DNA of 57,157 nucleotides, from positions 1 to 57,157 of IMG/VR virus record IMGVR_UViG_3300028829_000632; one strand, given 5' to 3'. The number at the start of each line of letters is the position of its first letter. Within the stretch, counting starts at the first letter, position 1. A program made the position numbers and the translations under genes. The notes below the pieces were generated by a model. That model worked only from the letters and a program-made list of their open reading frames with translations. It made no database searches and was not told where the DNA came from. Origin of the DNA: a virus. Of this stretch, positions 1 through 16,174 are shown piece by piece.

Positions 1-581
1 AAATTCATTATCATTTGGATCGTAACCTTCATTCTTTAGTTCCGCATCAATGGCTAGTGCCGCTGCGGTCATAACATTATTAGTACCAAACCAATCATTC
101 TCTGATGCCCACTCTTCTGCCTTGGGATCATTGGCCGCAGGTCTAGGAGCAACCTGCCGTTGCACTGGCTGTTCTACTGGAGCAGCTTCATAATTACGTT
201 TGGCACTGGAAACATTCTTCAGATCACCCTGCGCTTCATTTAGCATTGTCTGAGCCTGAAGAAGTTTCTCCTTCTCACCATTTTCAAATGCTTCTAAATA
301 AGCTGCCTGAGCTAACTGAATTTTATCTGTCAATTGCTTTTCTGAAGCATCAAGACTTAGTTTATTAATCTCTTGTACTTCAGAGTGCTTTGTTTTGAGG
401 TTAGTTTCTAATTCCTCATTCTTCTGCATGAGGGAGTAAATCTGTTCGTCACGTTCTTTACGCTGACGAATGAGTTGTCGGATACGTTTCTGAGCGCCAG
501 ACGTTTCAACTCCATCTAGCTCTGACCCACCTTTTTCTTTTTCTTTTTCTTCTTTTTCTTCAGGTGCAGAAACTGCAATAG
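1..581. repeat. Left copy of 581-bp terminal overlap
   Basis: Bases 1-581 match 56577-57157 without gaps but with 13 substitutions (left positions 136, 137, 158, 202, 256, 268, 277, 322, 352, 373, 385, 438 and 451). Several change an amino acid (for example Ala/Val, Arg/Gln and Tyr/His). The overlap lies wholly inside the scaffolding gene. The genome therefore closes as a circle of 56,576 bp. The mismatches argue against an exact direct terminal repeat and for a join between two strains or population variants. Confidence 0.95.
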
Positions 582-675
582 TTTGTTCAGAAGATTCTTC
601 AATTTCATACGCAACTTCATTCTCCTCTGCATTATCAGGAACAGATACTTCGCTCCACTCTTCTTTTTCGATCAT
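1..675 (-). CDS. Probable scaffolding protein, N-terminal part, cut by window start
   Basis: Seen: reading leftwards from an ATG at 675 the frame stays open for 225 codons to base 1. The first 50 or so residues are very acidic with an alternating Lys/Glu run, followed by a long charged, Gln/Glu/Ala-rich stretch likely to form coiled coil. The last ~190 codons recur at the right end of the window (56577-57157), where the same frame runs on to a stop at 56316. Joined across the ends the protein would be 311 aa. Inferred: its place between the portal/GroES-like genes and the capsid genes, its acidity and its helical look suggest the head scaffolding protein; I see no decisive family motif. A sigma-70 promoter (732-760) lies just upstream and the 5' leader holds a small hairpin (691-710). 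The start has only a weak ribosome-binding site. Confidence 0.55.
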   Translation of the reverse strand, partial: MIEKEEWSEVSVPDNAEENEVAYEIEESSEQTIAVSAPEEKEEKEKEKGGSELDGVETSGAQKRIRQLIRQRKERDEQIYSLMQKNEELETNLKTKHSEVQEINKLSLDASEKQLTDKIQLAQAAYLEAFENGEKEKLLQAQTMLNEAQGDLKNVSSAKRNYEAAPVEQPVQRQVAPRPAANDPKAEEWASENDWFGTNNVMTAAALAIDAELKNEGYDPNDNEF

Positions 676-731
676 TGTTTTTTTCTTTCCCGTTGTTTAC
701 GAAACAAACGATTTAACGATTATATCAGTAT

Positions 732-760
732 ATTATAGCATAGTATTGTTATATCTACAA
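732..760 (-). promoter_or_regulatory. Sigma-70 promoter before scaffold/head genes
   Basis: On the minus strand the sequence reads TTGTAG (760-755), a 17-bp spacer, then TATAAT (737-732) preceded by TGC, an extended -10. The start of transcription would fall near 725, followed by a leader with a hairpin at 691-710 (8 bp with one bulged base, 3-nt loop). It is placed to drive the scaffold, head and capsid genes. Confidence 0.7.
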
Positions 761-761
761 A

Positions 762-1190
762 TTAAGCTGATCCTGCACTAAGATTAAAGGTAGGATCAAG
801 ATCAGCAGGGTTTTCTACACGGAGCATGATCTGGTCATCAAACAATAGAATAAGCCGTACTCCTTTATAAAATAGCTTAGTTCCTGTATGCTTACCGTAG
901 CAAACATAGTCCCCTTCTTTACACCAGTTACCTTTAGGAAACTTATCCCGATCTCTATATGCAAGATCACCAAGGCTTAGAACTTTACCAATAGTTGTAA
1001 GATAAGACATATCTTCTTTGGTAGAGTCTGGAATAATAATACCACCCTTGGTTAATGACTTAACCGAGACAGGGCGGATTAGAACATGAAAGCCGGGAAG
1101 TGATGGTAGTACATCAGGGTCTGGCTGTTCAATAGGGTCTGTGATCCAGAGATCATTTTTAATAGAATTACCTAAATTTACTTGTTGCAT
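762..1190 (-). CDS. GroES-like co-chaperonin
   Basis: Seen: 142 aa. From residue ~35 the protein follows the Cpn10 pattern: a conserved opening (GFHVLIRPV), a mobile-loop-like stretch ending IIIPDSTKE, then GKVLSLGD, EGDYVCYGKHTG, YKGV and the final strand DDQIMLRVEN. Known: such proteins cap the GroEL chamber; T4 gp31 does this to fold the T4 capsid protein. Inferred: it retools host GroEL to fold a virion protein, most likely the capsid protein of the same arm. The ATG at 1190 is chosen because AGGAGT sits just before it; an earlier ATG at 1202 would place that ribosome-binding site inside the gene. It starts one base after the stop of the 64-aa gene. An N-terminal extension of ~35 residues is unusual for bacterial GroES (about 95 aa). 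Confidence 0.85.
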   Translation of the reverse strand: MQQVNLGNSIKNDLWITDPIEQPDPDVLPSLPGFHVLIRPVSVKSLTKGGIIIPDSTKEDMSYLTTIGKVLSLGDLAYRDRDKFPKGNWCKEGDYVCYGKHTGTKLFYKGVRLILLFDDQIMLRVENPADLDPTFNLSAGSA

Positions 1191-1191
1191 T

Positions 1192-1386
1192 TTACTCCTC
1201 ATCTTCGTCGTATATGCGTTTCTTTACAATATCAGTTAAACGGTCTCTTGACCACTCTAACCCTGCAAGAGTGCCTACCATTTGCTTATACTCAGCATAG
1301 TCACTGGCACTGCCATTACCAAGAGACACTCTTAGATTATTAATTTCTTCATTTAGTGTTTGAACAAATTCATCCCAGATAGTCAT
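1192..1386 (-). CDS. Small head-region protein (64 aa), unknown
   Basis: No family recognised. The protein is acidic and mostly helical by composition, ending in EDEE. Its ATG overlaps the stop of the 70-aa gene (TAATG) and its stop is one base from the GroES-like start, so it is translated within the portal-to-chaperonin gene run. Unannotated short genes in this position are common in podovirus-like head modules. Confidence 0.7.
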   Translation of the reverse strand: MTIWDEFVQTLNEEINNLRVSLGNGSASDYAEYKQMVGTLAGLEWSRDRLTDIVKKRIYDEDEE

Positions 1387-1598
1387 TACTTGAGTTTAGC
1401 AGGACCGGGAAATTCAAACGAGGACTTATCGAACTCGCCAAGAACACTACGATTCTTACGTGTGCCGTAGGACTCTTCCTTTACTACATCACCAAACGTA
1501 GCACGATTAGAAGACGGTACATGTGTAACGTATCCGTCAGTAATACCTTTAACATCGGGCTTCACATGATCGTGATAGCCCTTTCCTTTTGTCATCAT
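1386..1598 (-). CDS. Small protein (70 aa) after portal, unknown
   Basis: The protein is basic and polar, rich in Lys, Gly and Ser, with no membrane segment or recognisable motif. The start overlaps the portal stop codon (ATGATGA), with AGGAGA a suitable distance upstream; the ATG at 1595 is an equally possible start one codon later. Tight overlap with both neighbours marks it as part of the structural run. Function unknown. Confidence 0.7.
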   Translation of the reverse strand: MMTKGKGYHDHVKPDVKGITDGYVTHVPSSNRATFGDVVKEESYGTRKNRSVLGEFDKSSFEFPGPAKLK

Positions 1599-4066
1599 TG
1601 GTTGTCTCCTTGAAACTGTTTAAGAAATTCAAATATTTCTTGAGTTGTGTTTTCTTTTTCTTTACCTTGCTGCTTTTCAGCTTCAATAGCCAATAGTGTA
1701 AGAGCTTCAAGGGCTTTGATATCTTGCTTACTATTCCGATCTAGCTCGGCTTTCTCTCGTTTGAAGTTATCAGTAGAGTTAGTTTTCAACATACTAATAA
1801 TCTGATCGTTCTCTTCAAGCTCAAGTTTCTTATTCTTCAGTTCCATATCAGCCGCTGAGATAGCAGTATCATTCTGAAGTTTTTGTTTCTCAAGTTCTAC
1901 CTTGGCCTGTTCAAGTGAAACTAGCTGCTGCTCTGGCGACTGTGCCATGCCCATAGCCATGTTAGCATTGAGAACCTGCTGTGCAGCCTGTGCTGTAATC
2001 ATCTCGATTACCTGTGGGTTACGAGCAGCATCTGGTCCAGCTTCCTGCATCAACTGCTGAGTCATACCTGCCACCTGTTCCTGATACTTCATTACAGAAT
2101 GTTCCTGAATGTTAGCTTCAAGAATAGGACGGAGCCTACCCATAATAGGATTAGAGCCGTTCATAGGGTCTTGAAGGTAAGCCATCTTAGTCTGGATATG
2201 TGCATCATGGTTCTGACCAGCAAATGCCCCGATAGGAATACCCTTTGTTGCAGCCATGATATCAGACACTGGGTCCATAGCTTGAGGCTCAATCTTAGGA
2301 GGCAGTATCTGTTCTAGGTTAGGCATGTTAGCAGCATGTAGAATAGTTCTATTCAATGCTTCTAGGTTAAACATTCCCGGCGGGGACTGCTGTGCCATCT
2401 GTAATGCCATGTTAGCCAACATCATGCGATGGGCATTGGATGGAATGTTAGGATCAGATACAGGGATAATATCTACACGACCATCAAAGTCTTTTCGGAA
2501 AATACTACGCGACTCAAAGGGGACATCATATGGATATTCGTCAGGTAAGTAATCATAGTTAATACTGGCAAGGATTCTAAATTCATCCTTCTGTGATTTA
2601 TGCACTCGCTTGTGAATAGCCGAGAAAAACTTACTACTGGCTTCAAGCAACGCCATAGTCGTGCCAACGGGTCCATAAGAGGCAGCATCAGAAATTACTT
2701 GCTCTGTGCTATCTGCAAACTTTTGTCCTGTCAAAGCTACAAACTGTAGCATCTGATATAGAGTTGAGGAAGGCTCTTTGTAGGGGAGGGGAACAATAGC
2801 CTTTGATAAATCTATACCCGTTGCTTCAACCTCTTTGAACTCGCCCGGACTGATTGGATCATTATCTCCAACAATCCTGACACCCTTAGCTTTAAATCCG
2901 CCCGGAAGATTAGCAAACTGACCTGCGTCTATAAGAGACCGCATTGCTGCCGTCGCACTCATTGTCAGATTTCCAAGGAAATGAATTAAGCCAAGGCCGT
3001 AAAAACCAAAACCGGGAACAAACCTGTAATGAACAAAGTGACTCCGCTTCTCACGGTTAGGATCGTCTTGTTCATAGTTTCTACGAATACTTAGTACCTG
3101 TCGAGAATCCTGCTCAACAGTTACAATATATGGAAGTGCTTCATCAGCATCTTCAATATCTAAATAACAATGCTGTTCCAGTAAGACATACTGAGGATCA
3201 TTATCATAATCAGGATTGAAACCAAGAATAGTATCAATCTTTTCTGCAAAAGAAGTAATCCCTGATTGAGAAGGAGTAGGAAGATCAGCATCCTGATACA
3301 CTCCTGCATTGATATCTTTTTGAATATCTATAGGACTACGATAGATTACATGCGTATACCTGTCAGCATTTCTAAGATCAGTAGCATAGTAAGAAATATA
3401 AAACTGGTCAATAGGAATAAACTCTGAGACAGGGCGCTTCAGTGTAGAGCTATAGTAAATCTTTTTAAACGCTGAACCAATCAAGGGGAGATGGAAAAGC
3501 ATTCTTTCAAATTCGTCAAAGTATTCTGGCATCTGCTCAGTAACCTGATAGTTCATAAAGTTCTGAACACGGTTAGCTTGCATTTCCTTTTCAGGAGTAG
3601 CACTGCCTAGAATATTTGCTTTTACTGGACCACTTGCAGGAAAGAGTTCCTGTGAAGCCTTCGACTGAAACTTAACAGCCGACTCAATTAGTAGTGGGTG
3701 GACTGCCGTACATGCGCCCTCAAAAGGTTCTGAACCTTGCTCTAGCTTTAAGCCTAGCAAATCAAACCCACGTTCAAACATAGACTCCCATTCAGAACGG
3801 GACTCCTTATCTGCTTGAAAATTATCTATGACCATGCGGCCAATCTCAAGAAGTTCTTCTTCTTCTAATGTTTCTGTTAAATCACCATACCACTCAGCAA
3901 CTTCGTCAGTCGCTTCCATGCCTACAGCTTCAGTAAAATCTACAATGACGCCATCACCTTCAGGATCAATCTCAATGCTTGCTCCTGTTTCAGACTGCTC
4001 CATGAGAGGGATTACATTATCTTCTTCTTCAGGGATCGTGTCGAAAGGGTTACGTTCAGTTGCCAT
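1595..4066 (-). CDS. Portal protein
   Basis: Seen: 823 aa. It has an acidic N-terminus, a central mixed alpha/beta body, and a C-terminal ~130 residues rich in Gln, Glu, Lys and Ala that look like a long coiled coil (roughly residues 690-800). Known: podovirus portals of the P22 type are 700-850 aa with a long helical barrel at the C-terminus, and form the dodecameric ring through which DNA is packaged. Inferred: length, the helical tail and position two genes after the large terminase and before scaffold/capsid make portal the best call; the resemblance is to portals of marine podovirus-like phages. The start overlaps the stop of the 346-aa gene (TAATG). Confidence 0.8.
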   Translation of the reverse strand: MATERNPFDTIPEEEDNVIPLMEQSETGASIEIDPEGDGVIVDFTEAVGMEATDEVAEWYGDLTETLEEEELLEIGRMVIDNFQADKESRSEWESMFERGFDLLGLKLEQGSEPFEGACTAVHPLLIESAVKFQSKASQELFPASGPVKANILGSATPEKEMQANRVQNFMNYQVTEQMPEYFDEFERMLFHLPLIGSAFKKIYYSSTLKRPVSEFIPIDQFYISYYATDLRNADRYTHVIYRSPIDIQKDINAGVYQDADLPTPSQSGITSFAEKIDTILGFNPDYDNDPQYVLLEQHCYLDIEDADEALPYIVTVEQDSRQVLSIRRNYEQDDPNREKRSHFVHYRFVPGFGFYGLGLIHFLGNLTMSATAAMRSLIDAGQFANLPGGFKAKGVRIVGDNDPISPGEFKEVEATGIDLSKAIVPLPYKEPSSTLYQMLQFVALTGQKFADSTEQVISDAASYGPVGTTMALLEASSKFFSAIHKRVHKSQKDEFRILASINYDYLPDEYPYDVPFESRSIFRKDFDGRVDIIPVSDPNIPSNAHRMMLANMALQMAQQSPPGMFNLEALNRTILHAANMPNLEQILPPKIEPQAMDPVSDIMAATKGIPIGAFAGQNHDAHIQTKMAYLQDPMNGSNPIMGRLRPILEANIQEHSVMKYQEQVAGMTQQLMQEAGPDAARNPQVIEMITAQAAQQVLNANMAMGMAQSPEQQLVSLEQAKVELEKQKLQNDTAISAADMELKNKKLELEENDQIISMLKTNSTDNFKREKAELDRNSKQDIKALEALTLLAIEAEKQQGKEKENTTQEIFEFLKQFQGDNQ

Positions 4067-5106
4067 TATGCTGTTCCTGTATTATTTGTTGCAATGCCGA
4101 GTAGTCCTGCGCTTGAACCCGGCCCATAAATGCTATCTATTAAATCAGCGCGGTGGTTTATTTCTTCTTCTTCTTCTGTTAACTGCCTATTAATATTTAA
4201 TAGTCTATTAGCCTGTGCTACGCCATACATTTGTTTTATAATATCTTCAATATTTGTACCAGCAATACGTTCTTCGGCTGTCTGTCTGACTCTGGCGACA
4301 TCTGCATCTGACACATCTTCAACAGGGACTTCTTTAACTGCTGCAATTTTTTCTTTAATAATAATATCGTCTCCACCAGCATCGGTGCCATCATCGTCAC
4401 CATCGTCGTCATCTCCTTGATTACCACCCGGAGATGTAGTTGGGCCTGTGACAGTTGCTATACTGGGATCAAACCCAAGCGCCGCTGCGACAGCACTTGC
4501 AGTTCCGGGCATACCTATACCAATATTTTGTGAATAAGTCATATCAGGATTAACATTAAATCCTTTATCGGTAAGACCAACGAAACCCAGAGCAGCTCTG
4601 CCTACCATACCTTTACTAGGACCCGGCGTATTAAACGAAACTTGAGCATTCTGATTAGAACCTAATCCCATACTATTATTCTGACCGGGATCAGTAACAT
4701 CGCCAACAACTCCCATTGGGTCCATTCCAAAACTACCGGGATCATCGGGATCACCAAAACCCTGACCAGTAGTATCACCACTATCAGGATCAGAATCCTC
4801 ACCGGGACCGCCGGGTCCGGGACCACCTTGATCTGAGCCACCATCTACACTATCGTCGTAAGCTGGAATACCGTCAATCTTTCTACCACTACCACCAAGT
4901 GATTTTAATAAATCTTCTTCATTAGGATTAATGTAGGCCAGTCTGTGTGGCTGACCATTAATGTTCAGACTGTTCTGAACACTAGATAGACCACCTCCTT
5001 GCGCCATAGGCATAACAGGTTGCGTCCCCATGCTAATAGTAAGCATAGGTTTTTCACGTTCTAGTTTTCTGGATACTACTTCTTGTGCATATTCAAATAA
5101 AGACAT
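4066..5106 (-). CDS. Gly/Asp/Pro-rich virion-associated protein (346 aa)
   Basis: The N-terminal ~85 residues look folded and contain a stretch seen in many marine phage proteins (LAYINPNEEDLLKSLGGSG). Residues ~85-165 and 225-245 are low complexity, dominated by Asp, Gly and Pro, and probably unstructured. The last 90 residues are helical and charged. It lies between terminase and portal. Function unknown; a minor head or packaging-associated protein is a guess from position. It has its own promoter (5149-5177), and its leader carries a 5-bp hairpin (5118-5131) before the start. Confidence 0.7.
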   Translation of the reverse strand: MSLFEYAQEVVSRKLEREKPMLTISMGTQPVMPMAQGGGLSSVQNSLNINGQPHRLAYINPNEEDLLKSLGGSGRKIDGIPAYDDSVDGGSDQGGPGPGGPGEDSDPDSGDTTGQGFGDPDDPGSFGMDPMGVVGDVTDPGQNNSMGLGSNQNAQVSFNTPGPSKGMVGRAALGFVGLTDKGFNVNPDMTYSQNIGIGMPGTASAVAAALGFDPSIATVTGPTTSPGGNQGDDDDGDDDGTDAGGDDIIIKEKIAAVKEVPVEDVSDADVARVRQTAEERIAGTNIEDIIKQMYGVAQANRLLNINRQLTEEEEEINHRADLIDSIYGPGSSAGLLGIATNNTGTA

Positions 5107-5148
5107 TTAATTCCCCTGTAACAAAAGTTACCTCGCCTAACCCACTAT

Positions 5149-5177
5149 ATTATAGCACACTATTTTAAAATGTCCAA
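5149..5177 (-). promoter_or_regulatory. Sigma-70 promoter inside the end of terminase gene
   Basis: On the minus strand TTGGAC (5177-5172), 17 bp, TATAAT (5154-5149) with an extended -10 (TGC before TATAAT). The 11 bases TGCTATAATAT recur at the 732-760 promoter. Transcription would start near 5142 and read the 346-aa gene, portal and downstream genes independently of the terminase promoter. Confidence 0.6.
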
Positions 5178-6703
5178 TAGGTAGATTTCTTTTCCCTGAC
5201 AGGCTCATCCCAATCTGGATCGTCAGGATGTGCAAGGTTCCATGAGTCACGCATGTAATGTACTGCCATAGTCAACGCATCTACCTGATCGTCATGGGCT
5301 GAGTTTGGAAAACGGATTAACTCTTCTATAAGGTCATCTGCCCATTTCTTAGAGGTAGGTAGCCATAGCCGTCCTGCTTCCATGATAGGCGTAGCTGCAT
5401 AAACTCTGGATACCTTATCCCGATCTGGCATGTATTCCATGATGGGTAATCCTGATCTGCGTAAGTCCTGAATCAAAGACTGCCCACTTGCTTTCTTTTC
5501 AATCATGCAGACATCAGGTCTATACTGATTATACAGCTTCTGTGCAATACGCCTAAGCTCTGGGTACTCAAACCTACCCTTGACATTACCAAGTAAGATT
5601 AAGTTAGAAGCATAATCTTCTACCCCTTCTTCATCTTGGTCATACATGTAAAATATGCCCCATGTCTGGATAACACTGTAATCAGCCGTGTTACTTGTAG
5701 AGAAAGCAGTGTCCATCGTTTGTATAATAAACTCACAGGTAGGAGGCTCTTCGTATTCCCATTCCTGAATCCACTTCTTTTTAATTAACCCGCCTTCTTC
5801 GGGGGTAGGGTCTTGCATATAGAGAGCATTCCAGTATCTGCTACCATTACTGGCCTTGATCTCATGTTCATCAATACGTAATAGCGCATCAGACTTCCAT
5901 TCTGGAAAATAACTACTACCCACTGGTAAATCAAGCAGTTCTGCTGCTTCTTCGTCTACCCATGCAGGAATCTTAATTACTTCCCACGGGATTGTCTCAT
6001 AATCGCCCATGTCTTCCTGCTGTCGTAGCAACCATCCGCAGAGATCATCATGATGGTAGCGCGTATTAATAATAACAATCGCACCGTTGGGCATAATACG
6101 AGTACGTAGACCAGCAGGGTACCATTCTTTGATGTATCTTCTACCTGCATCTGAATATGAGTCCTCTTCAGACATCACATCATCCAGAATTGCTACATGA
6201 GCACCTCGTCCAGCAATTTGTGACCTGACACCAGCCGCATAGTAGGTACCATTCTGCGTGGTCTTCCACTTACCTGCTGCACGAACGTCACTACGTAGCG
6301 CAACACCGGGAAATATTTTAGAAAACTCTTCAGTATTAACCACATCTCGGACAGACCGACCAAAATCACTAGACAATTGGTCACTATGGGAGACAGTCAG
6401 TATCTCATGTTCTGGGTTTCTACCTATATACCATGCTGGAAACAACTTAGAACAGATAACAGACTTTGATGAACGTGGTGGAAGGAAGACCATCAGTCTT
6501 TTTATTTTTCCAGACTCTAAATCTTTCAGCTTTTCAGAGATTAGTTCAATATGTTTACCCATCTTCCAACCAGACACAAGGCTTGGAGCGACAAGACGTA
6601 CAAATGTGAGGAAATCTGTGTTGGCTTCTAGATTTATTTCTTGATTAAGAAGGTGCTGTAGGTCAATATATGAATCTAGAAAGTTATCTTCAATGTTTAA
6701 CAT
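5165..6703 (-). CDS. terL: Terminase large subunit
   Basis: Seen: 512 aa with both domains of a packaging motor. The ATPase has a Walker A-like PPRSSKS at residues 75-81 (the Gly-poor form typical of this group), Walker B ILDD at 172-175 and a coupling-type motif NTRYHHDDL near 210. The C-terminal RNase H-like nuclease has DTAFS, then IEKKASG, then HDDQVDALT, supplying the acidic metal ligands. Known: TerL pumps DNA through the portal and cuts the concatemer. The start is the only Met available; there is no ribosome-binding site, and the promoter at 6710-6738 predicts transcription starting on the A of this ATG. The small subunit is encoded far away on the other strand (28568-29056). Confidence 0.95.
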   Translation of the reverse strand: MLNIEDNFLDSYIDLQHLLNQEINLEANTDFLTFVRLVAPSLVSGWKMGKHIELISEKLKDLESGKIKRLMVFLPPRSSKSVICSKLFPAWYIGRNPEHEILTVSHSDQLSSDFGRSVRDVVNTEEFSKIFPGVALRSDVRAAGKWKTTQNGTYYAAGVRSQIAGRGAHVAILDDVMSEEDSYSDAGRRYIKEWYPAGLRTRIMPNGAIVIINTRYHHDDLCGWLLRQQEDMGDYETIPWEVIKIPAWVDEEAAELLDLPVGSSYFPEWKSDALLRIDEHEIKASNGSRYWNALYMQDPTPEEGGLIKKKWIQEWEYEEPPTCEFIIQTMDTAFSTSNTADYSVIQTWGIFYMYDQDEEGVEDYASNLILLGNVKGRFEYPELRRIAQKLYNQYRPDVCMIEKKASGQSLIQDLRRSGLPIMEYMPDRDKVSRVYAATPIMEAGRLWLPTSKKWADDLIEELIRFPNSAHDDQVDALTMAVHYMRDSWNLAHPDDPDWDEPVREKKSTYWTF

Positions 6704-6709
6704 AACATT

Positions 6710-6738
6710 ATTATAACATATATATTAATGTTAGACAA
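6710..6738 (-). promoter_or_regulatory. Sigma-70 promoter giving a leaderless terminase mRNA
   Basis: On the minus strand TTGTCT (6738-6733), 17 bp, TATAAT (6715-6710) preceded by TGT. Seven bases beyond the -10 is position 6703, the first base of the terminase start codon, so the mRNA would begin with AUG. Confidence 0.7.
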
Positions 6739-6926
6739 ATGTTAATTTATATCTTAATAGTGTAGTAGTATTGTTTATTAGTCTAATGGTTATATTAAGT
6801 GCGCGCTAAAAAATACTAGATTTTACTGCCCCATAGATTATGGGTACCCTTTCCTCCCTTTGGTATATTATATATATGTACGCGCCCGAGCATTTTCCGC
6901 GCAGGGTACGCGATTTAGTAAAAAAC

Positions 6927-6955
6927 TTTACAAAAAGCTGGAATAACAGATACCT
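6927..6955 (+). promoter_or_regulatory. Weak candidate early promoter
   Basis: TTTACA (6927-6932) matches the -35 consensus at five of six positions, but the element 16-17 bp downstream (GATACC/ATACCT) is a poor -10. If used, the transcript would start a few bases before the first 51-nt hairpin (6967) and carry the whole hairpin array as a leader. Confidence 0.3.
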
Positions 6956-6966
6956 TTTTCCAAGTT

Positions 6967-7017
6967 TAATTAATAAATACTACTTAGCTTCCTTTGGAAG
7001 CAGTATTTATTTAATTA
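6967..7017 (+). repeat. 51-nt bulged hairpin, copy 1 (variant)
   Basis: Architecture: 5-bp base TAATT/AATTA with one unpaired T on the 3' side (7012), a 10-bp stem (6972-6981 with 7002-7011), a 5-nt bulge ACTTA (6982-6986), a 6-bp inner stem GCTTCC/GGAAGC and loop TTT. Two base pairs of the 10-bp stem and one of the inner stem differ from the other copies but are compensated. No gene follows directly; the triloop array does. Confidence 0.85.
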
Positions 7018-7050
7018 TATACTAAATACCAACCCCAAACCTCCCCAAAT

Positions 7051-7209
7051 CATCCAAAGGATGTGTAGGGTGGCTAGTTCTGCTACAAGGTAGCAAGGCT
7101 AGTCTTCGACTAAACCTTTGGAAAGCTTATAACTTCTTAAGTTATCCACAGCAAAGCAAAGCTTTGTTGCACGATGAAGCAAGCAGAGCTTGACAAGGCT
7201 TTGCAAGCC
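7051..7209 (+). other. Run of seven perfect triloop hairpins
   Basis: Seven different perfect inverted repeats, each with a 3-nt loop, lie in 159 bases: CATCC/GGATG (7051-7063), TGCTAC/GTAGCA (7081-7095), TAGTC/GACTA (7100-7112), ATAACTT/AAGTTAT (7129-7145), a 9-bp stem with one G-U pair (7149-7169), CAAGC/GCTTG (7180-7192) and GGCTT/AAGCC (7197-7209). Their sequences are unrelated, so this is not an operator array for one repressor. It could be a structured RNA leader, single-strand DNA hairpins at an origin, or both. Confidence 0.75.
7142..7150 (+). promoter_or_regulatory. Perfect DnaA box
   Basis: TTATCCACA is the exact bacterial DnaA-box consensus. It overlaps the right arm of the 7-bp hairpin (7129-7145) and the foot of the next hairpin. 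Only one perfect copy was noticed here, so host DnaA use is a suggestion. Confidence 0.5.
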
Positions 7210-7217
7210 GCTATGAT
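7190..7217 (+). promoter_or_regulatory. Early sigma-70 promoter
   Basis: A perfect -35 TTGACA (7190-7195), 16 bp and TATGAT (7212-7217). Predicted transcription start is 7224, the first base of hairpin copy 2. Two of the triloop hairpins overlap the -35 and fill the spacer, so the promoter itself may be controlled through these inverted repeats. It is the best candidate for driving the rightward early genes. Confidence 0.75.
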
Positions 7218-7223
7218 GAAACC

Positions 7224-7274
7224 TAATTACTAACTACTACTTAGCTTACTACGTAAGCAGTAGTTAGTTAATTA
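7224..7274 (+). repeat. 51-nt bulged hairpin, copy 2
   Basis: Base TAATT/AATTA with a bulged T (7269), 10-bp stem ACTAACTACT/AGTAGTTAGT, bulge ACTTA (7239-7243), inner stem GCTTAC/GTAAGC and loop TAC. It begins at the predicted start of the early transcript and is followed by a leader ACAACTTGGAGT before the 54-aa gene. Confidence 0.9.
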
Positions 7275-7294
7275 AACAACTTGGAGTGAAATTT

Positions 7295-7459
7295 ATGAAC
7301 ATTGCAACAGCAATCCAAACTATCGAAGATAACAGCAACTTTGTTGCTTATGTCACCGTTGGTGGTAGTGAGCATCTCGACATCCATTCAGAGAATGGAG
7401 AGTTTATTTCTTGCATCCACACCGATGAAACCGACAGGTTTTTGGACATTCAAGGCTAA
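7295..7459 (+). CDS. Early small protein (54 aa), unknown
   Basis: ATG follows the ribosome-binding site TTGGAG by a normal distance and the frame closes with a TAA that is also the first three bases of hairpin copy 3. The protein is soluble and weakly acidic, with no recognisable motif. As the first gene after the early promoter it may act on the host early in infection, but this is only positional inference. Confidence 0.75.
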   Translation: MNIATAIQTIEDNSNFVAYVTVGGSEHLDIHSENGEFISCIHTDETDRFLDIQG

Positions 7460-7507
7460 TTACTAACTACTACTTAGCTTACTTTGTAAGCAGTAGTTAG
7501 TTAATTA
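7457..7507 (+). repeat. 51-nt bulged hairpin, copy 3
   Basis: Same architecture as copy 2 with loop TTT instead of TAC. The first three bases are the stop codon of the 54-aa gene; AAAGGAG for the next gene follows at once. Confidence 0.9.
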
Positions 7508-7519
7508 AAGGAGATTGAA

Positions 7520-7717
7520 ATGGAATATGGTCTAGTTGCCTTCGGCATTCTTGGAATAGTTTTTCTGGCTGCTATCAGTTGCTTTGCCGTTAGTACTACT
7601 AACGAGCTGACTAGAAGTAGCAGTGATAAAAGGAATTTCAATCGAAAGATTGAGAAAGCCGCTCGTGAGGAGAGACGGCATCAGCGAGTGATGGCACAAA
7701 TCAAGGCTAATTACTAA
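7520..7717 (+). CDS. Small single-pass membrane protein (65 aa)
   Basis: Residues 5-25 form one clear hydrophobic helix, followed by a strongly charged Arg/Lys/Glu tail of ~40 residues predicted to lie in the cytoplasm. AAAGGAG precedes the ATG. No family recognised. Small early phage membrane proteins often interfere with host membrane functions or exclude other phages, but nothing here shows which. The stop lies inside hairpin copy 4. Confidence 0.75.
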   Translation: MEYGLVAFGILGIVFLAAISCFAVSTTNELTRSSSDKRNFNRKIEKAAREERRHQRVMAQIKANY

Positions 7718-7758
7718 CTACTACTTAGCTTACTTTGTAAGCAGTAGTTAGTTAATTA
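7708..7758 (+). repeat. 51-nt bulged hairpin, copy 4
   Basis: Identical to copy 3. It begins two codons before the end of the 65-aa gene, so the hairpin overlaps the coding end. It is followed by the same ACAACTTGGAGT leader as copies 2 and 5. Confidence 0.9.
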
Positions 7759-7786
7759 AGTAAACAAACAACTTGGAGTTAAAATT

Positions 7787-8071
7787 ATGACTAAGACATT
7801 CAAAGCATTTGCTGGCAAGAACTGGGTAGCCCTGACAAGCCGAGAGGCTTTCAAGGAAGCTGACAAGGCTGGTAAGCCTATCCGAATTGAGTTCGACAAT
7901 GGCTCTTTCAGAGTCATCAAGAACGCTGACAAGTTGCCAGAAGGCAAGCCAGTTGGCTTTAGCAAAGCAGCAGCAGATCGGGAAGCTGCAAAGCAGAAGA
8001 AAGTAGTTAAGCCCGAAGTTGTGGAAGCGGTAGCAACTGCTACAAAGCTATCGCAGTGGCCTTCCCACTAA
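7787..8071 (+). CDS. Early basic protein (94 aa), unknown
   Basis: The first ~60 residues look like a small alpha/beta fold. The tail from ~62 is rich in Ala, Lys and Glu and probably extended. CTTGGAGT precedes the ATG. No family recognised. The stop codon starts a long hairpin (8069-8121). Confidence 0.75.
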   Translation: MTKTFKAFAGKNWVALTSREAFKEADKAGKPIRIEFDNGSFRVIKNADKLPEGKPVGFSKAAADREAAKQKKVVKPEVVEAVATATKLSQWPSH

Positions 8072-8121
8072 ATACTTTGTGCAGGGCATAGCTAGTTGCT
8101 ATGTCTTGTGCTAAGTATTTA
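8069..8121 (+). other. Long intercistronic hairpin (24-bp stem)
   Basis: Bases 8069-8092 pair with 8098-8121, with one mismatch and four G-U pairs; the loop is TAGTT. It starts on the stop codon of the 94-aa gene, like the 51-nt hairpins, but has no ACTTA bulge. The G-U pairs show that pairing is kept at RNA level. No T-run follows, so a simple terminator is unlikely; processing or mRNA protection fits better. Confidence 0.75.
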
Positions 8122-8144
8122 TATCTTTAACAAAAGGAAATAAA

Positions 8145-8312
8145 ATGTATGATTCCAGACTTCCAAAGTGTGACCAGTGTGGTGAAGCTGCAAAAGTAAA
8201 AGATAGCGGCTTGCTATTGTGTGCGCCATGCTATATGAAAGATGCGAAGCGATCAGCCAGAACGAAGTCTGAATACGTAGCTTCCATCGTAATTGAAACA
8301 CGGAAAGGTTAA
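8145..8312 (+). CDS. Zinc-ribbon microprotein (55 aa)
   Basis: Two CxxC pairs (Cys9/12 and Cys26/29), spaced 13 residues apart, form a zinc ribbon. The C-terminal half is basic and helical. AAAGGAA precedes the ATG. Nucleic-acid or protein binding is likely from the fold; the target is unknown. It is one of four small CxxC proteins in this genome. Confidence 0.75.
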   Translation: MYDSRLPKCDQCGEAAKVKDSGLLLCAPCYMKDAKRSARTKSEYVASIVIETRKG

Positions 8313-8317
8313 AGCTA

Positions 8318-8578
8318 ATGACGACAAATAATGAAATGAAACATACAGTTTTACTGTCCTTAAAGTATCTCACAGCTTTAGTTGAAGAGAAAATTGACTT
8401 ACTAAAAGCCATAGATTGTGATACTTATGAAGATGGTAGCTATGATTTAAACGATCAGATCATGACTTTTATTAGGACTGTTCAAGAATTAAAAGCTGTA
8501 ATCAATCGTTCAGTGGCAATCGTGCCAAACGACGAACTGTACTATGCCGGGACAATATGGGACGATTACGAAGACTAA
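8318..8578 (+). CDS. Early acidic helical protein (86 aa), unknown
   Basis: Starts five bases after the zinc-ribbon gene. Acidic and mostly helical by composition, ending with WDDYED. No recognised family. The stop is the first codon of hairpin copy 5. Confidence 0.75.
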   Translation: MTTNNEMKHTVLLSLKYLTALVEEKIDLLKAIDCDTYEDGSYDLNDQIMTFIRTVQELKAVINRSVAIVPNDELYYAGTIWDDYED

Positions 8579-8626
8579 TTACTAACTACTACTTAGCTTC
8601 CTTTGGAAGCAGTAGTTAGTTAATTA
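8576..8626 (+). repeat. 51-nt bulged hairpin, copy 5
   Basis: Same as copies 2-4 except that the inner stem is GCTTCC/GGAAGC, a compensated A-T to C-G change, with loop TTT. It is followed by ACAACTTGGAGT and the DUF2958 gene. Confidence 0.9.
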
Positions 8627-8647
8627 CTACAACTTGGAGTGTTGAAA

Positions 8648-8923
8648 ATGCAGATGCTAACAAAACAGAACGAAAAAGACTTAGGCAAAAAAGTAATTAA
8701 GTTTTTTACGCCTTGGTCGAACTGGTCTTGGTATGTCACCGAAGGTGAGCAAGAAAGCAACGGCGACTGGTTGTTCTTTGGCTTTGTAGAAGGCATGGAG
8801 CGAGAATGGGGTAGCTTTAGACTGTCGGAACTTACCAGTGTAACTGGTCCGATGGGTCTCAAGATTGAACGGGACCGTTGGTTTGATACCCCGGTCACAG
8901 AATTTTCAACTGAAAACGTCTAA
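8648..8923 (+). CDS. DUF2958 family protein
   Basis: Seen: 91 aa with the family signature: KFFTPWSNWSWYVTEGE, FFGFVEGMEREWGSF, LSELTSV, GPMGLKIERD. Known: DUF2958 proteins are small, occur on plasmids and phages, and have no settled function. The ATG at 8648 lies 8 bases after GGAG; upstream GTG and TTG codons in frame sit on or too close to that site. Confidence 0.85.
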   Translation: MQMLTKQNEKDLGKKVIKFFTPWSNWSWYVTEGEQESNGDWLFFGFVEGMEREWGSFRLSELTSVTGPMGLKIERDRWFDTPVTEFSTENV

Positions 8924-8933
8924 GGAAAATCTA

Positions 8934-9563
8934 ATGTATAACCGCGACAATAAAATGATCCAGAAGTATTCCGATCAAGGTTCAACCCAAACTGCTATTG
9001 CAGCAATGTTTGTTATCTCTAGCATTAGGACTTTTACTTGGCTGTTGCCAGATATGATGGACAACTATCGTGACAAAGGTATGAAATCATTTAATACTTT
9101 AATGCCAAAACAGAAAGAGGGTATTAAATATGTAATGAAAAATAAGGAATGGCTGTACGATTTGGTGCAGAGCTACAAGGCTGGAGATATTTATCCAGAA
9201 GAGTTTCTGATATCTTTGCAGCGTATCCCGTGCATTGGCTTGGTAAAAGCAGGGTTTATCATGCAACTCACCACTGGTGAAGCTGGATGCCTTGACTGTC
9301 ACAATCTAAAGCAGTATGATGTGGACGAAAACACATTCAAAGTAAATGGAAAAGACAAGGGCAAGATAACCGCCGCTAGCTTTAACAAAGCAAGAAAGTA
9401 TCTTGCAGTGTGTAAGGAAATCGGTGGCAGTGAAGTACTTTGGAATAACTGGTGCGATCTAGTAGCAGAAAAATATCCGAAGCACTTTGAAGCTGGTGAC
9501 GATGTATCTTGGTTGCATAGCAATGCTATCATGGGAATCCATCAGACAATGGCAAGGGCATAG
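8934..9563 (+). CDS. Helix-hairpin-helix protein, DNA-glycosylase-like
   Basis: Seen: 209 aa with ATG after AAGGA. The middle contains IPCIGLVKAGF, which fits a helix-hairpin-helix turn, and 15 residues after its Ala a LDCHN segment. Known: in HhH-GPD base-excision glycosylases the order is (L)PGVGxxTA, then VDTH about 16 residues on, the Asp being catalytic. Inferred: this is a diverged member or relative; the Lys of bifunctional enzymes such as EndoIII is not at the usual place. It could repair phage DNA or act on modified bases. A non-enzymatic DNA-binding role is also possible. The C-terminal ~60 residues are unassigned. Confidence 0.55.
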   Translation: MYNRDNKMIQKYSDQGSTQTAIAAMFVISSIRTFTWLLPDMMDNYRDKGMKSFNTLMPKQKEGIKYVMKNKEWLYDLVQSYKAGDIYPEEFLISLQRIPCIGLVKAGFIMQLTTGEAGCLDCHNLKQYDVDENTFKVNGKDKGKITAASFNKARKYLAVCKEIGGSEVLWNNWCDLVAEKYPKHFEAGDDVSWLHSNAIMGIHQTMARA

Positions 9564-9566
9564 ACT

Positions 9567-9791
9567 ATGACAAGTGAAGCAATATCAATCGAACCTAATA
9601 TGTATCAAGCCATAGCTTTGAAACATGGCTTGAGACTTTGGATCAGGCATGGTATAAAAGCTAATACTAGATGGACTGTCACCAACATGCTGCGAACTGT
9701 CGGCAAGTTTACTGGTAAAAGCTATAAGCGTAGTAAGCAAGGACAGGAAGAAGCATTGGCAGATATCATTGCATTTATAGAGGGTAATTAA
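9567..9791 (+). CDS. Small basic protein (74 aa), unknown
   Basis: Helical and basic, ending just before the start of the next gene. A Lys/Arg-rich stretch (residues 45-60) might contact nucleic acid. No family recognised. Confidence 0.7.
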   Translation: MTSEAISIEPNMYQAIALKHGLRLWIRHGIKANTRWTVTNMLRTVGKFTGKSYKRSKQGQEEALADIIAFIEGN

Positions 9792-10016
9792 ATGGAAGAT
9801 TTTTCGACACTTATGTTCCATGAAATGGACGAGGACCAACACGCAGCATTTGAAGCAGCGTGGATCATAGGCTGGGCAAAAGATTTACAGGTCGAATGTG
9901 GTATGTCCGCTAAAGAAGCAGAAGAGCAAGCACCTTATGATTATGAAAAGTATCTTAATCAAGAGGGGTATACGCAACGAGACATGTACATAGAATTAAA
10001 CAGAAGTAGAGGGTAA
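9792..10016 (+). CDS. Small acidic protein (74 aa), unknown
   Basis: Directly follows the previous stop; GAGGGTAATTAA provides the ribosome-binding site inside the upstream gene end. Very acidic, with aromatic residues spread along it. Small, strongly acidic early proteins are often DNA mimics or inhibitors, but nothing specific is visible here. Confidence 0.7.
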   Translation: MEDFSTLMFHEMDEDQHAAFEAAWIIGWAKDLQVECGMSAKEAEEQAPYDYEKYLNQEGYTQRDMYIELNRSRG

Positions 10017-10020
10017 TTAA

Positions 10021-10206
10021 ATGAATGCATATGTCACAGAAAAAATATGTAAAGTTTGCAAAGGCATGACAGAACGTATGGAATACATTCTAACTGTAGA
10101 TAACACTGATATATATTACTGTGATGCCTGTGAAACTGAACACCACTCAACGCCTGTGGAGTATGTAACTCCAGAGGTTATGCTTAGTGAACTATACGGA
10201 GAATAG
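10021..10206 (+). CDS. Zinc-ribbon microprotein (61 aa)
   Basis: CKVC (Cys10/13) and CDAC (Cys34/37) form a four-Cys zinc ribbon, followed by an acidic tail. The upstream sequence AGAGGGTAATTAA matches that before the preceding gene. Probably a nucleic-acid or protein-binding module; target unknown. Confidence 0.75.
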   Translation: MNAYVTEKICKVCKGMTERMEYILTVDNTDIYYCDACETEHHSTPVEYVTPEVMLSELYGE

Positions 10207-10208
10207 CT

Positions 10209-10391
10209 ATGAAGTATGAAAGCACTGACGACCTTTCTACCCTTCAAATTCTGGAACTTAGTGAGCGTATAGCAGAAGCTATGAAAGTAAAGGATGCGTT
10301 TACTACTGAGGCAGACGTTTTTTATTTTGAAACGAATGACTATCTTGCTGAACTTACAATCAATAAAAACACCATCAATATAAAAAACTAA
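10209..10391 (+). CDS. Small acidic protein (60 aa), unknown
   Basis: Starts two bases after the upstream stop, with GGAGAA overlapping that gene end. Acidic, with a helical first half and a beta-like second half. No motif recognised. Confidence 0.65.
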   Translation: MKYESTDDLSTLQILELSERIAEAMKVKDAFTTEADVFYFETNDYLAELTINKNTINIKN

Positions 10392-10439
10392 CGGAGAATG
10401 TGTAAGCAACAGTAATTAAATTTTATAAGGAAACAAAAT

Positions 10440-10541
10440 ATGTATGATACGACGACACTAAAAGTAATTACATTAGTTATTACTACTGTGGTGATAGTGG
10501 CAGTAGTATTTGTTGTATATAAATATACAAAGGATATGTAA
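10440..10541 (+). CDS. Single-TM micropeptide (33 aa)
   Basis: ATG follows AAGGA at a normal distance. Residues 7-27 are almost entirely Val, Ile, Thr, Leu and Ala, a single membrane helix, ending in a Lys/Asp tail. The next gene starts one base after its TAA. Function unknown. Confidence 0.6.
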   Translation: MYDTTTLKVITLVITTVVIVAVVFVVYKYTKDM

Positions 10542-10542
10542 T

Positions 10543-10773
10543 ATGGCTATGTTATTTCTGTATCCCAGTAAGAAAAATATGAGAGAAAATATTGGTAAGC
10601 CCTTGAAGTATGAGGAAACATCTTTCTTTGGGCCAGAGTACTTGACCGATGGCGAATTGTATGGTAGTAATAGGCCATCAGTTACGGGTATCAAAACCGC
10701 TGAAGGTAAGAAAGCTACTGAGTTTTTTGCTCAGGTTATTATGGAAAATTCTTTAATCAAGAGGGTAATATAA
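10543..10773 (+). CDS. Small protein (76 aa), unknown
   Basis: The ATG at 10543 follows AAGGA in the end of the micropeptide gene; ATG 10549 is possible. Mixed composition with conserved-looking Gly and aromatic residues but no family recognised. It abuts the next gene with no spacer. Confidence 0.65.
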   Translation: MAMLFLYPSKKNMRENIGKPLKYEETSFFGPEYLTDGELYGSNRPSVTGIKTAEGKKATEFFAQVIMENSLIKRVI

Positions 10774-11013
10774 ATGTTTAAGACTGTGAAACTTACTGCT
10801 CGTGTCAACGCCAAGTCACCAAAGTATGGTTATGGTTTCCATTTAATTAGTAATGGGTGGCGTGTAGATGTGCCTTACCATAGCATTACAGTGTTTGGTA
10901 AGTCATCTGTGAAGCCTACCATTCGATCAAAGCGTAGCGGTCTTCGCTGGATTGTGGAGAACAATCGCTCTCGCCTTGTTCGTGTGGCGCACAATGTAGG
11001 ACAAGGAAACTAA
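10774..11013 (+). CDS. Small basic protein (79 aa), unknown
   Basis: Strongly basic (many Arg/Lys in residues 40-75), probably beta-rich. A ribosome-binding site GAGGG lies in the preceding gene end. It directly precedes tRNA-Leu. Nucleic-acid binding is plausible from charge only. Confidence 0.65.
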   Translation: MFKTVKLTARVNAKSPKYGYGFHLISNGWRVDVPYHSITVFGKSSVKPTIRSKRSGLRWIVENNRSRLVRVAHNVGQGN

Positions 11014-11022
11014 TATAAACAA

Positions 11023-11109
11023 GTGAGCGTGGTGAAATTGGTAAACACAACAGACTTAAAATCTGTCGCCAGCTATGGCTTGCGGGTTCAAGTCCCGCCG
11101 CTCACACCA
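11023..11109 (+). tRNA. tRNA-Leu (UAA)
   Basis: Acceptor arms GTGAGCG/CGCTCAC, anticodon arm ACAGA/TCTGT with loop CTTAAAA (anticodon TAA), a long variable arm (GCC..GGC) typical of leucine tRNAs, T arm GCGGG/CCCGC and an encoded CCA end. It decodes TTA, a codon favoured by AT-rich phage genes. Confidence 0.97.
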
Positions 11110-11120
11110 AAGGAAAATAA

Positions 11121-11264
11121 ATGATAAAATCTAAATCAAATACAGTTATAGAACCGACCAAGAAAAAGACAAGTATTGGTGGTAATCATGCTATGGTATC
11201 AAGTAAAACTATGAATAAGAACAGGCGCTCCCGCTACAAAAAATATAGAGGGCAGGGACGATAG
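11121..11264 (+). CDS. Small basic protein (47 aa), unknown
   Basis: ATG follows AAAGGAAAATAA soon after the tRNA. Very basic, ending in an Arg/Lys/Tyr-rich tail. No motif; nucleic-acid binding is plausible from charge. Confidence 0.55.
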   Translation: MIKSKSNTVIEPTKKKTSIGGNHAMVSSKTMNKNRRSRYKKYRGQGR

Positions 11265-11266
11265 CA

Positions 11267-11380
11267 ATGGTTGAGATACTCACTTTAATAGTAGAAGCAA
11301 CTGTGTTGCTGGGTGTCTGGGTTAATACAGTTATTAATTTAATTCTTTACAGAAAAAGGAAAAAAGATGCCAAGGTTTAG
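11267..11380 (+). CDS. Single-TM micropeptide (37 aa)
   Basis: One hydrophobic helix (about residues 4-27) followed by a Lys/Arg-rich end. It starts two bases after the upstream stop and overlaps the next gene by 14 bases. GGGCAGGGACG upstream is a weak ribosome-binding site. Function unknown. Confidence 0.5.
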   Translation: MVEILTLIVEATVLLGVWVNTVINLILYRKRKKDAKV

Positions 11381-11606
11381 AGGCTGGGTTTTTCTTGAAG
11401 ATGAGCTACCCTATATAGGATCAGGTGCTAGGCTATTAGAGGCCAAAGTAGGATGGAAATGGGTAAGAGCTAAGTCAGCTACCTATCCTATCCCACAAAA
11501 CTATTCACGCATTTCTTTAACTAAATGGAAAAATATCTTGAGGCGTACTGAAAAGCGTGGCATACCTTGGGATACAACATGGGAGACAGGCAGTGATGGC
11601 AGATAA
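11367..11606 (+). CDS. Small basic protein (79 aa), unknown
   Basis: ATG follows AAAAAGGAAAAAAG. Rich in Trp and Arg, probably a compact beta fold. No family recognised. It overlaps the following gene by 11 bases. Confidence 0.65.
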   Translation: MPRFRGWVFLEDELPYIGSGARLLEAKVGWKWVRAKSATYPIPQNYSRISLTKWKNILRRTEKRGIPWDTTWETGSDGR

Positions 11607-11832
11607 TGGTTGGAAGACCAGAGGCAGAGACATCACCAGTTTCTATGAACTGTTTGGTGCCGAGATAGAGTACAATCTAACAGAAGGTAAGAACCCTATC
11701 GTTGTAGTCTATGGTTCATTGGCAGCAGCTATAGATGCAGCGTTCCATCATGCACCTTCCAATGAGGATGCTATGTTTGTAGTTACATCGTTATTGAATA
11801 AGAAGTTAGAAGACTTGACAAAAGAAGACTGA
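11596..11832 (+). CDS. Small protein (78 aa), unknown
   Basis: Start at the ATG 11596 within the end of the previous gene, after GGAGA; an earlier in-frame start at 11557 would overlap it more deeply. Mixed alpha/beta look with a central hydrophobic strand (NPIVVVYGSL). No family recognised. Confidence 0.65.
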   Translation: MADNGWKTRGRDITSFYELFGAEIEYNLTEGKNPIVVVYGSLAAAIDAAFHHAPSNEDAMFVVTSLLNKKLEDLTKED

Positions 11833-11842
11833 TATGTATATA

Positions 11843-11919
11843 CTCCACATAGCTCAACTGGATAGAGCAACAGCCTTCTAAGCTGTAGGTTGTAGGTTCG
11901 AGTCCTACTGTGGAGGCCA
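11843..11919 (+). tRNA. tRNA-Arg (UCU)
   Basis: Acceptor arms CTCCACA/TGTGGAG, D arm GCTC/GAGC, anticodon arm ACAGC/GCTGT with loop CTTCTAA (anticodon TCT), T arm GTAGG/CCTAC and an encoded CCA. It decodes AGA, common in AT-rich phage genes and scarcer in many GC-rich hosts. Confidence 0.97.
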
Positions 11920-11926
11920 ACCAACT

Positions 11927-11977
11927 CTATTAGTAACTACTACTTAGCTTACTACGTAAGCAGTAGTTACTTAATAG
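11927..11977 (+). repeat. 51-nt bulged hairpin, copy 6 (variant)
   Basis: Base CTATT/AATAG, bulged T (11972), stem AGTAACTACT/AGTAGTTACT, bulge ACTTA (11942-11946), inner stem GCTTAC/GTAAGC and loop TAC. Relative to copy 2, three base pairs are changed on both sides and still pair. It lies 3 kb from copy 5, between tRNA-Arg and the 60-aa gene. Confidence 0.9.
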
Positions 11978-11990
11978 TAAGGAGAATGAA

Positions 11991-12173
11991 ATGTATAGTG
12001 AGACCACAAGTTTTAAGGCTAGTAAGATCGTATGTGATACCCATCGTAACCCTTCCTATACTATTACAAAGGTAACTGTTACCGATATTGAAGGCAATGA
12101 GATTGAACATAAGATTTTTCACAATGACGACATGACTGTAGAAATAGAATTAAAAGAAGAAGTATTGACATGA
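11991..12173 (+). CDS. Small protein (60 aa), unknown
   Basis: AAGGAG precedes the ATG, immediately after hairpin copy 6. Beta-rich and acidic towards the C-terminus. No family recognised. Its stop overlaps the start of the DUF1289-like gene (ATGA). Confidence 0.7.
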   Translation: MYSETTSFKASKIVCDTHRNPSYTITKVTVTDIEGNEIEHKIFHNDDMTVEIELKEEVLT

Positions 12174-15995: not shown

Positions 15996-16174
15996 TGGTA
16001 AAAAAATGGGCAGTTAGAAATATCAATACAAATACTTTAGTGAGTAAGGACATCAGAACAAGAGGCGAAGCCGAAGAAACTCTTGACTATTACAGCAAAT
16101 TGTATTATGCTATCTACTCAGAGCGACGTACAGATTATAAGAAACTCTATGAAATTGTATCTAACAGTGAGTAA
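15995..16174 (+). CDS. Small basic protein (59 aa), unknown
   Basis: The start at 15995 shares a base with the thyX stop (TGATG), with AAGGAG nine bases upstream; an upstream ATG at 15968 would hide that site. Basic, rich in Tyr and Arg. It directly precedes the primase-helicase gene. No family recognised. Confidence 0.65.
   Translation: MVKKWAVRNINTNTLVSKDIRTRGEAEETLDYYSKLYYAIYSERRTDYKKLYEIVSNSE

Follow-up and report, generated by a model that had tools for sequence, protein, structure and literature searches.

Why does one phage place the same interrupted hairpin repeatedly along its early region, and what might read it? The question is raised by a 57,157-nucleotide (nt) stretch of viral DNA (IMG/VR record IMGVR_UViG_3300028829_000632, positions 1 to 57,157; this whole stretch is called the window), in which six copies of a bulged hairpin, named class I, accompany the early genes. 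Comparison with related sequences indicates that these hairpins are almost certainly working signals in early messages. The sequence evidence gives good support for selection acting on a folded element whose bulge is recognised, because the covariation is strong and the bulge stays fixed when it is left free in the search. The first-pass annotation, a short earlier note made from the letters of the window, had proposed such selection, and the counts given below bear it out.

The class I hairpin in the window

All six copies are 51 nt long and lie on the + strand, which is that of the early genes. They occupy 6967–7017 (copy 1, the leader copy), 7224–7274 (copy 2), 7457–7507 (copy 3), 7708–7758 (copy 4), 8576–8626 (copy 5) and 11927–11977 (copy 6), exactly where the first-pass annotation had located them, and each folds in the way it had described: a 5-base-pair (bp) base, a lone bulged T on the 3' side, a 10-bp stem, a 5-nt bulge ACTTA on the 5' side, a 6-bp inner stem and a 3-nt loop. 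Folding energies range from -15.2 to -19.8 kcal/mol. Where at least six compensated pairs had been claimed, we counted seven compensated cells spread over five pair columns, namely outer pairs 2 and 6 and inner pair 5 in copy 1, inner pair 5 in copy 5, and two pairs of the base plus outer pair 2 in copy 6.

Scanned without bias for hairpins carrying a one-sided bulge of 4–6 nt, the whole window yielded eight with the bulge on the 5' side of the + strand: the six copies and two others, at 19730 and 54455, whose bulges are unrelated to ACTTA. The same 5'-bulge scan found none on the minus strand of the window, and shuffled 50-kb sequences of other phages gave 0–4 bulged hairpins per scan. An Rfam search at the gathering score matched only the two transfer RNAs (tRNAs) of the window and nothing at the hairpins.

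Evidence for selection on the fold

Covariation: The 67 distinct class I hairpins have standard pairs in 97.3% of their cells, and in 174 cells both sides have changed in compensation, against a mean of 50.3 in shuffled sets; none of 500 shuffles reaches 174, and shifting the partners by one to three columns abolishes the signal. The covariance model and the search of related contigs, which the first-pass annotation had suggested as a check, thus came out strongly positive. Because relatedness inflates counts of compensated cells, a lineage-corrected count was made on a terminase tree with one hairpin per lineage, the first class I copy (20 distinct). Across its 12 pairs the tree calls for a minimum of 50 pair-to-pair changes; a single wobble pair occurs, and in a few lineages, L009, L017 and L034 among them, the first copy is not a strict orthologue.

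The bulge: A scan of IMG/VR that placed no constraint on the five bulge positions still found ACTTA in 38 of 40 contig stretches, and the two exceptions (L029 and L035) both read TCTTA. When the neighbouring stem was left free instead, it took forms as different as CTCTCT, CCTTAAT, ATATAAT and ATTAATT, fully compensated, with ACTTA unchanged. The copy that follows tRNA-Arg occupies an orthologous site in relatives and illustrates the same behaviour, its pairing strands being GTAAC/GTTAC in the window, CTAAC/GTTAG in L025 and CTCAC/GTGAG in L054. The earlier statement that the bulge never changes holds for all six copies of the window and fails among relatives, where TCTTA, ACTTAA and GCTTGA occur, so that the bulge is almost, not absolutely, invariant. 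The 3' bulged T is often swapped in relatives for a bulged G, an A.G mismatch or a T.G, or is missing; the substitute single defect sits ~8–10 bp below the main bulge.

Scarcity of wobble: Wobble pairs make up 3 of 1060 class I cells and 6 of 335 cells in the outer stems of the further classes II and III described below, a near-absence that is unusual for covarying RNA. Many stem changes swap A-U for U-A or C-G for A-U and hence cannot pass through a wobble intermediate. Either the helices have to be perfect or template switching from one arm to the other contributes; the latter would not account for the retained bulge.

Phylogenetic spread

When IMG/VR was scanned for the pattern of the conserved core, 60 stretches came up. 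The true matches among them amount to 49 distinct hairpins with widespread compensated change, and the inner stem of all 49 starts with GCTT/AAGC. Class I is present in the same early region of at least 20 distinct lineages that belong to one uncultivated marine phage family. We treat them as a single family because the terminase of the contigs that reach this gene is 72–100% identical to that of the window (one partial match, 64%) and because the longer related records have most window genes in common. The marker used for placing relatives, the terminase large subunit, lies at 5165–6703 on the minus strand and is transcribed away from the early genes.

The nearest isolates are pelagiphages, with only 47% (DNA polymerase) or 40% (terminase) identity, and the isolates HTVC115P, HTVC103P, HTVC027P and DSL-LC04 carry no class I hairpin and no excess of 5'-bulged hairpins. 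A search of 84,980 bacterial and archaeal genomes for the exact class I pattern turned up no match. A blastn search of the hairpin against annotated phages gave one weak match, inside a structural-gene region, that was judged irrelevant. No description of such hairpins was found in the open literature searched, which comprised open-licence papers; this is a family-wide set of RNA elements undescribed in Rfam and in that literature.

Other hairpin classes in relatives

The unbiased bulged-hairpin scan was extended to 6-kb early regions, which hold 181 sense 5'-bulged hairpins versus 25 antisense; the larger late region, taken for comparison, has only 6–12 bulged hairpins per strand and side. 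Two further classes emerged. In class II the bulge reads GTAA, GTGA, GGAA, GGGA, GTTAA or GTGAA and the inner stem with its loop GTTC-TTAC-GAAC or GTAC-TTAC-GTAC, whereas class III has the bulge TAGAG, rarely TAGAC or TAGTC, under TATC-TTAC-GATA. Both covary, with 81 compensated cells in class II and 31 in class III, neither of which is reached in 500 shuffles. Lineages with class II or III early hairpins include L006, L024, L034, L035, L073 and L092; the window holds class I only, plus an internal-loop hairpin at 8069–8121.

Some details of these classes deserve mention in their own right. The class II bulge GTAA is complementary to the loop TTAC (for example in L092 and L066), making an alternative inner stem GTAA-GTTC-TTAC possible. 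In class III of L041 and L017, the base at the end of the bulge and the last loop base have changed together (G/C to C/G).

Placement in the early region

Gap placement: All 81 class I–III hairpins fall outside predicted genes. They mostly start -5 to 17 nt from the preceding stop codon (0–17 nt for classes II and III) and mostly leave 17–45 nt to the next ATG, and the ribosome-binding sites fall outside the hairpins. The window follows this arrangement closely. Copy 2 stands 20 nt before the ATG of a 54-amino-acid (aa) early gene (7295–7459, +) whose stop codon falls within the base of copy 3. Copy 4 is overlapped by the 3' end of a 65-aa early gene (7520–7717, +) and copy 5 begins at the stop codon of the open reading frame 8318–8578, so that copies 3, 4 and 5 all begin at or over the stop codon of the preceding gene. 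Copy 6 starts 7 nt after tRNA-Arg(TCT) (11843–11919, +) and ends 13 nt upstream of the ATG at 11991. The first-pass description of the hairpins as lying between early genes is therefore right in that none is inside a gene, and needs amending for copy 1, which sits in an untranslated leader, and for copy 6, which follows a tRNA.

Leaders: Leader copies lie mostly 140–335 nt from the first gene and, in most lineages, downstream of the early promoter region, the promoter matches having been made by pattern in the window and three relatives and by eye in the others. In the window a promoter-like element recognised from sequence, TTTACA-N16-GATACC (6927–6954, +), precedes copy 1; it is kept near the first hairpin in several relatives, there as TTGACA. 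A sigma70-like promoter, TTGACA-16-TATGAT (7190–7217, +; 11 of 12 positions match), has its predicted start site at the 5' edge of copy 2. Across the family, 14 of 96 hairpins have TTGACA upstream of them, where the background frequency is 5.75%, and most of the 14 stand in front of the first gene. A simple hairpin of 6–10 bp precedes the leader class I copy in 14 lineages and ends 1–9 nt upstream of it; together the two form a two-stem element of ~70 nt. The companion hairpins are unrelated in sequence (the lineages include L024, L006, L016, L035, L036, L045, L078, L092, L096 and L101) and are absent at copy 1 of the window and at intergenic copies.

The leaders of L008, L017, L034, L059, L073 and L092 also repeat a GATGA motif upstream of the first gene's hairpin; in one instance it supplies the loop of a small hairpin that covaries, CTT-GATG-AAG, and stands just ahead of TTGACA. 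Hammerhead and kink-turn assignments for GATGA were rejected by eye, as the conserved core is missing.

Interchangeability: The most widely shared early gene, found in 17 lineages and encoding a 94-aa protein in the window (7787–8071, +), has class I ahead of it in ten lineages and class III in three or four (L078, L092 and L084/L008). Class I and the internal-loop hairpin likewise alternate upstream of the same gene, and in close relatives small genes are permuted between hairpins. Because the classes replace each other before orthologous genes, the sequence comparison points to a generic role in punctuation, not to gene-specific control. One setting is different: in G003 (L087, ~16028–16067) a class I copy 96% identical to copy 6 of the window sits directly at the DNA polymerase stop codon. 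It comes with ~770 nt that have no counterpart in the window, and a TTGACA promoter-like sequence follows. Near-identical class I copies occupy this stop codon in L060 and L003 as well.

Resemblance to characterised RNA elements

RNase III sites of T7: The early mRNA (messenger RNA) of T7 is cut at five sites (PMC4858673). Like T7, the phages described here have several interrupted sense-strand hairpins in early-gene gaps, ~30 nt before start codons. At the coordinates that we take, after Dunn and Studier, to be those of the T7 cuts (R0.3, R0.5, R1, R1.1 and R1.3), the T7 sequence folds into interrupted hairpins, and in four of the five the cut lies 27–35 nt upstream of an ATG. The two systems differ in that the class I bulge is one-sided (5') and fixed in sequence on stems that are almost purely Watson-Crick, whereas in the T7 sites the stem is interrupted by an asymmetric internal loop whose 3' strand is unpaired at the cut, and G-U pairs occur. 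A search of T7 positions 1–7000 with the class I model found no match. The comparison with T7 offered in the first-pass annotation is thus apt for position and breaks down at the detailed shape of the unpaired region. The early mRNA of the Bacillus phage SP82 contains repeated hairpins cut by an RNase III-like enzyme; the likeness, drawn by description only, lies in the repetition of hairpins within phage early mRNA, and both phage and host differ.

HK022 put, TAR and boxB: The put site of HK022 is ~70 nt long, consists of two stem-loops just downstream of an early promoter, and carries a bulged U low in stem II (PMC9378689). Leader copies share with put the position after an early promoter and an extra bulged base low in the (second) stem. 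Two adjacent stem-loops of ~70 nt occur in the leaders of 14 lineages, the window and the intergenic copies having only one. Unlike put, the class I hairpins come in many copies per operon, most of them single, and the intergenic copies differ in layout. The TAR element of human immunodeficiency virus (HIV) is similar in that a 5' bulge sits beneath a conserved upper stem of 4 bp, close to the start of its transcript. Phage lambda boxB is recognised through its loop, whereas the class I loop is variable. No N-like or Tat-like protein was identified.

What the hairpins may do

Punctuation of early mRNA: We assign a probability of roughly 0.45 to the reading, drawn from sequence comparison, that the hairpins are trans-recognised punctuation defining the ends of early mRNA units by processing or protection. 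A trans-acting factor, of host or phage origin, would read the bulge and the adjacent 4–5 bp; the early transcript would be processed, or its decay blocked, at each hairpin; and short mRNA units would result whose ends are defined and structured. The three classes would then be alternative versions of one signal, and the functional parallel would be the T7 early RNase III sites, with the difference of a sequence-coded bulge. This reading is supported by the strong covariation around a fixed bulge seen in all three classes, and also by the sense-strand bias, the gap placement, the interchange of classes and the T7-like spacing. The predicted promoters add to it, since copies 1 and 2 appear to lie at expected transcript 5' ends.

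Several points weigh on the other side. Bacterial RNase III needs no fixed bulge sequence, so the invariant ACTTA calls for a more specific reader; no such reader was found, and the scanned window proteins include no RNA-processing nuclease or RNA-binding family. The unpaired 3'-strand segment at which T7 sites are cut is absent in class I. Moreover, the leader copy is ~200–300 nt from the first gene and the G003 copy precedes a promoter-like sequence, so the hairpin is not always the 5' untranslated region of the next gene. A related proposal, which we advance tentatively from the sequences of the three classes, is that a specific trans-acting factor reads interchangeable bulge codes (ACUUA; GUAA/GUGA/GGAA; UAGAG) carried on otherwise free helices, and that these codes set mRNA ends or the state of the polymerase; the element would then be a sequence-coded counterpart of the T7 sites, or a bacterial exonuclease-blocking or TAR-like element. 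Its position and probable role resemble a known kind, and its recognition feature is distinct.

The main rival of punctuation is antitermination or antipolarity, which we consider unlikely. The nascent hairpin would bind RNA polymerase, as put does at the beta' zinc-binding domain, or a small phage or host protein, in the manner of boxB or TAR, and the polymerase would resist pausing and Rho-dependent or intrinsic termination, the repeats renewing the effect along the operon. Such a role would suit the leader copy, which follows the early promoter region in most lineages, and the put-like layout of the two-stem leader element. Pfam scans of the window proteins, which covered all but a handful of small open reading frames and were joined by PHROGs matches to the 25 families listed, found no family of RNA polymerase, RNase III, integrase or established RNA-binding type; the host enzyme therefore probably transcribes the early genes, with the proviso that very divergent polymerases could escape Pfam, on which that negative rests. 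However, put occurs once per operon and the present hairpins up to six to eight times, most of them without the companion stem, which is missing also at copy 1 of the window; a class I model search of HK022 gave no match and no sequence likeness to put. Intrinsic terminators between early genes would themselves be stable hairpins directly after stop codons, as many copies are, and yet we give this explanation hardly any credence: no U-tract directly follows the full hairpin at any of the six copies, a terminator scan flagged only copy 1, through its inner stem, the fixed bulge is foreign to terminators, and leader copies right after promoters would block the operon.

Most copies stand 17–45 nt before a start codon, and an early phage protein that binds there, upstream of the ribosome-binding sites, could shut the early genes off together, with several classes serving several proteins. 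Such a translational operator is improbable, given that the ribosome-binding sites lie outside the hairpins, that leader copies are ~200–300 nt from any start, that one copy in relatives precedes a promoter-like sequence, and that no RNA-binding fold can be recognised in the most conserved early protein, which is also not seen in some hairpin-carrying lineages, though their loci are partial. The near-absence of wobble pairs (3/1060; 6/335), the permutation of small genes between hairpins and the ~770 nt that arrived with the G003 copy would fit an element acting in DNA, extruded or single-stranded, as a hairpin promoter or a site of replication or cassette recombination, in which template switching creates Watson-Crick-only covariation. 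Strict sense orientation and the absence of hairpins inside genes (0/81) make this quite improbable, as does the persistence of a bulge that template switching should erase; nor is there an integrase or RNA polymerase family among the Pfam matches. Integron attC sites were rejected because their box sequences misfit by eye and no integrase family was matched, and the virion RNA polymerase that marks N4-type hairpin promoters was likewise not found by these scans.

For this uncultivated marine phage family the hairpins are a family-wide RNA signal, one that lends itself to tests on synthetic RNA with no need of the phage. Should a dedicated factor recognise the bulge, this would be a new code of RNA-protein recognition serving as modular punctuation, and it would help explain how small early genes are shuffled with expression preserved. 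The covariance models can also flag early operons of such phages in metagenomes.

Neighbouring features

The 94-aa protein: This family carries the motif PIR[IV]..GSF[KR]V..N...LPEG and has no relative among annotated phages. Its predicted structure gave no significant match in fold searches.

Other hairpins and tRNAs: The internal-loop hairpin at 8069–8121 (+), provisionally 'class IV', is a long hairpin with paired TTTGTGC internal-loop strands, and its upper stem covaries with the equivalents in L039 and L025. A second phage-encoded tRNA, tRNA-Leu(TAA), lies among the early genes at 11023–11109. Other long AT-rich hairpins occupy early gaps in L068 (505–557 and 1302–1354 of its early region) and in L040; in these low-GC members the unpaired bases are placed differently, on the 3' side in L068.

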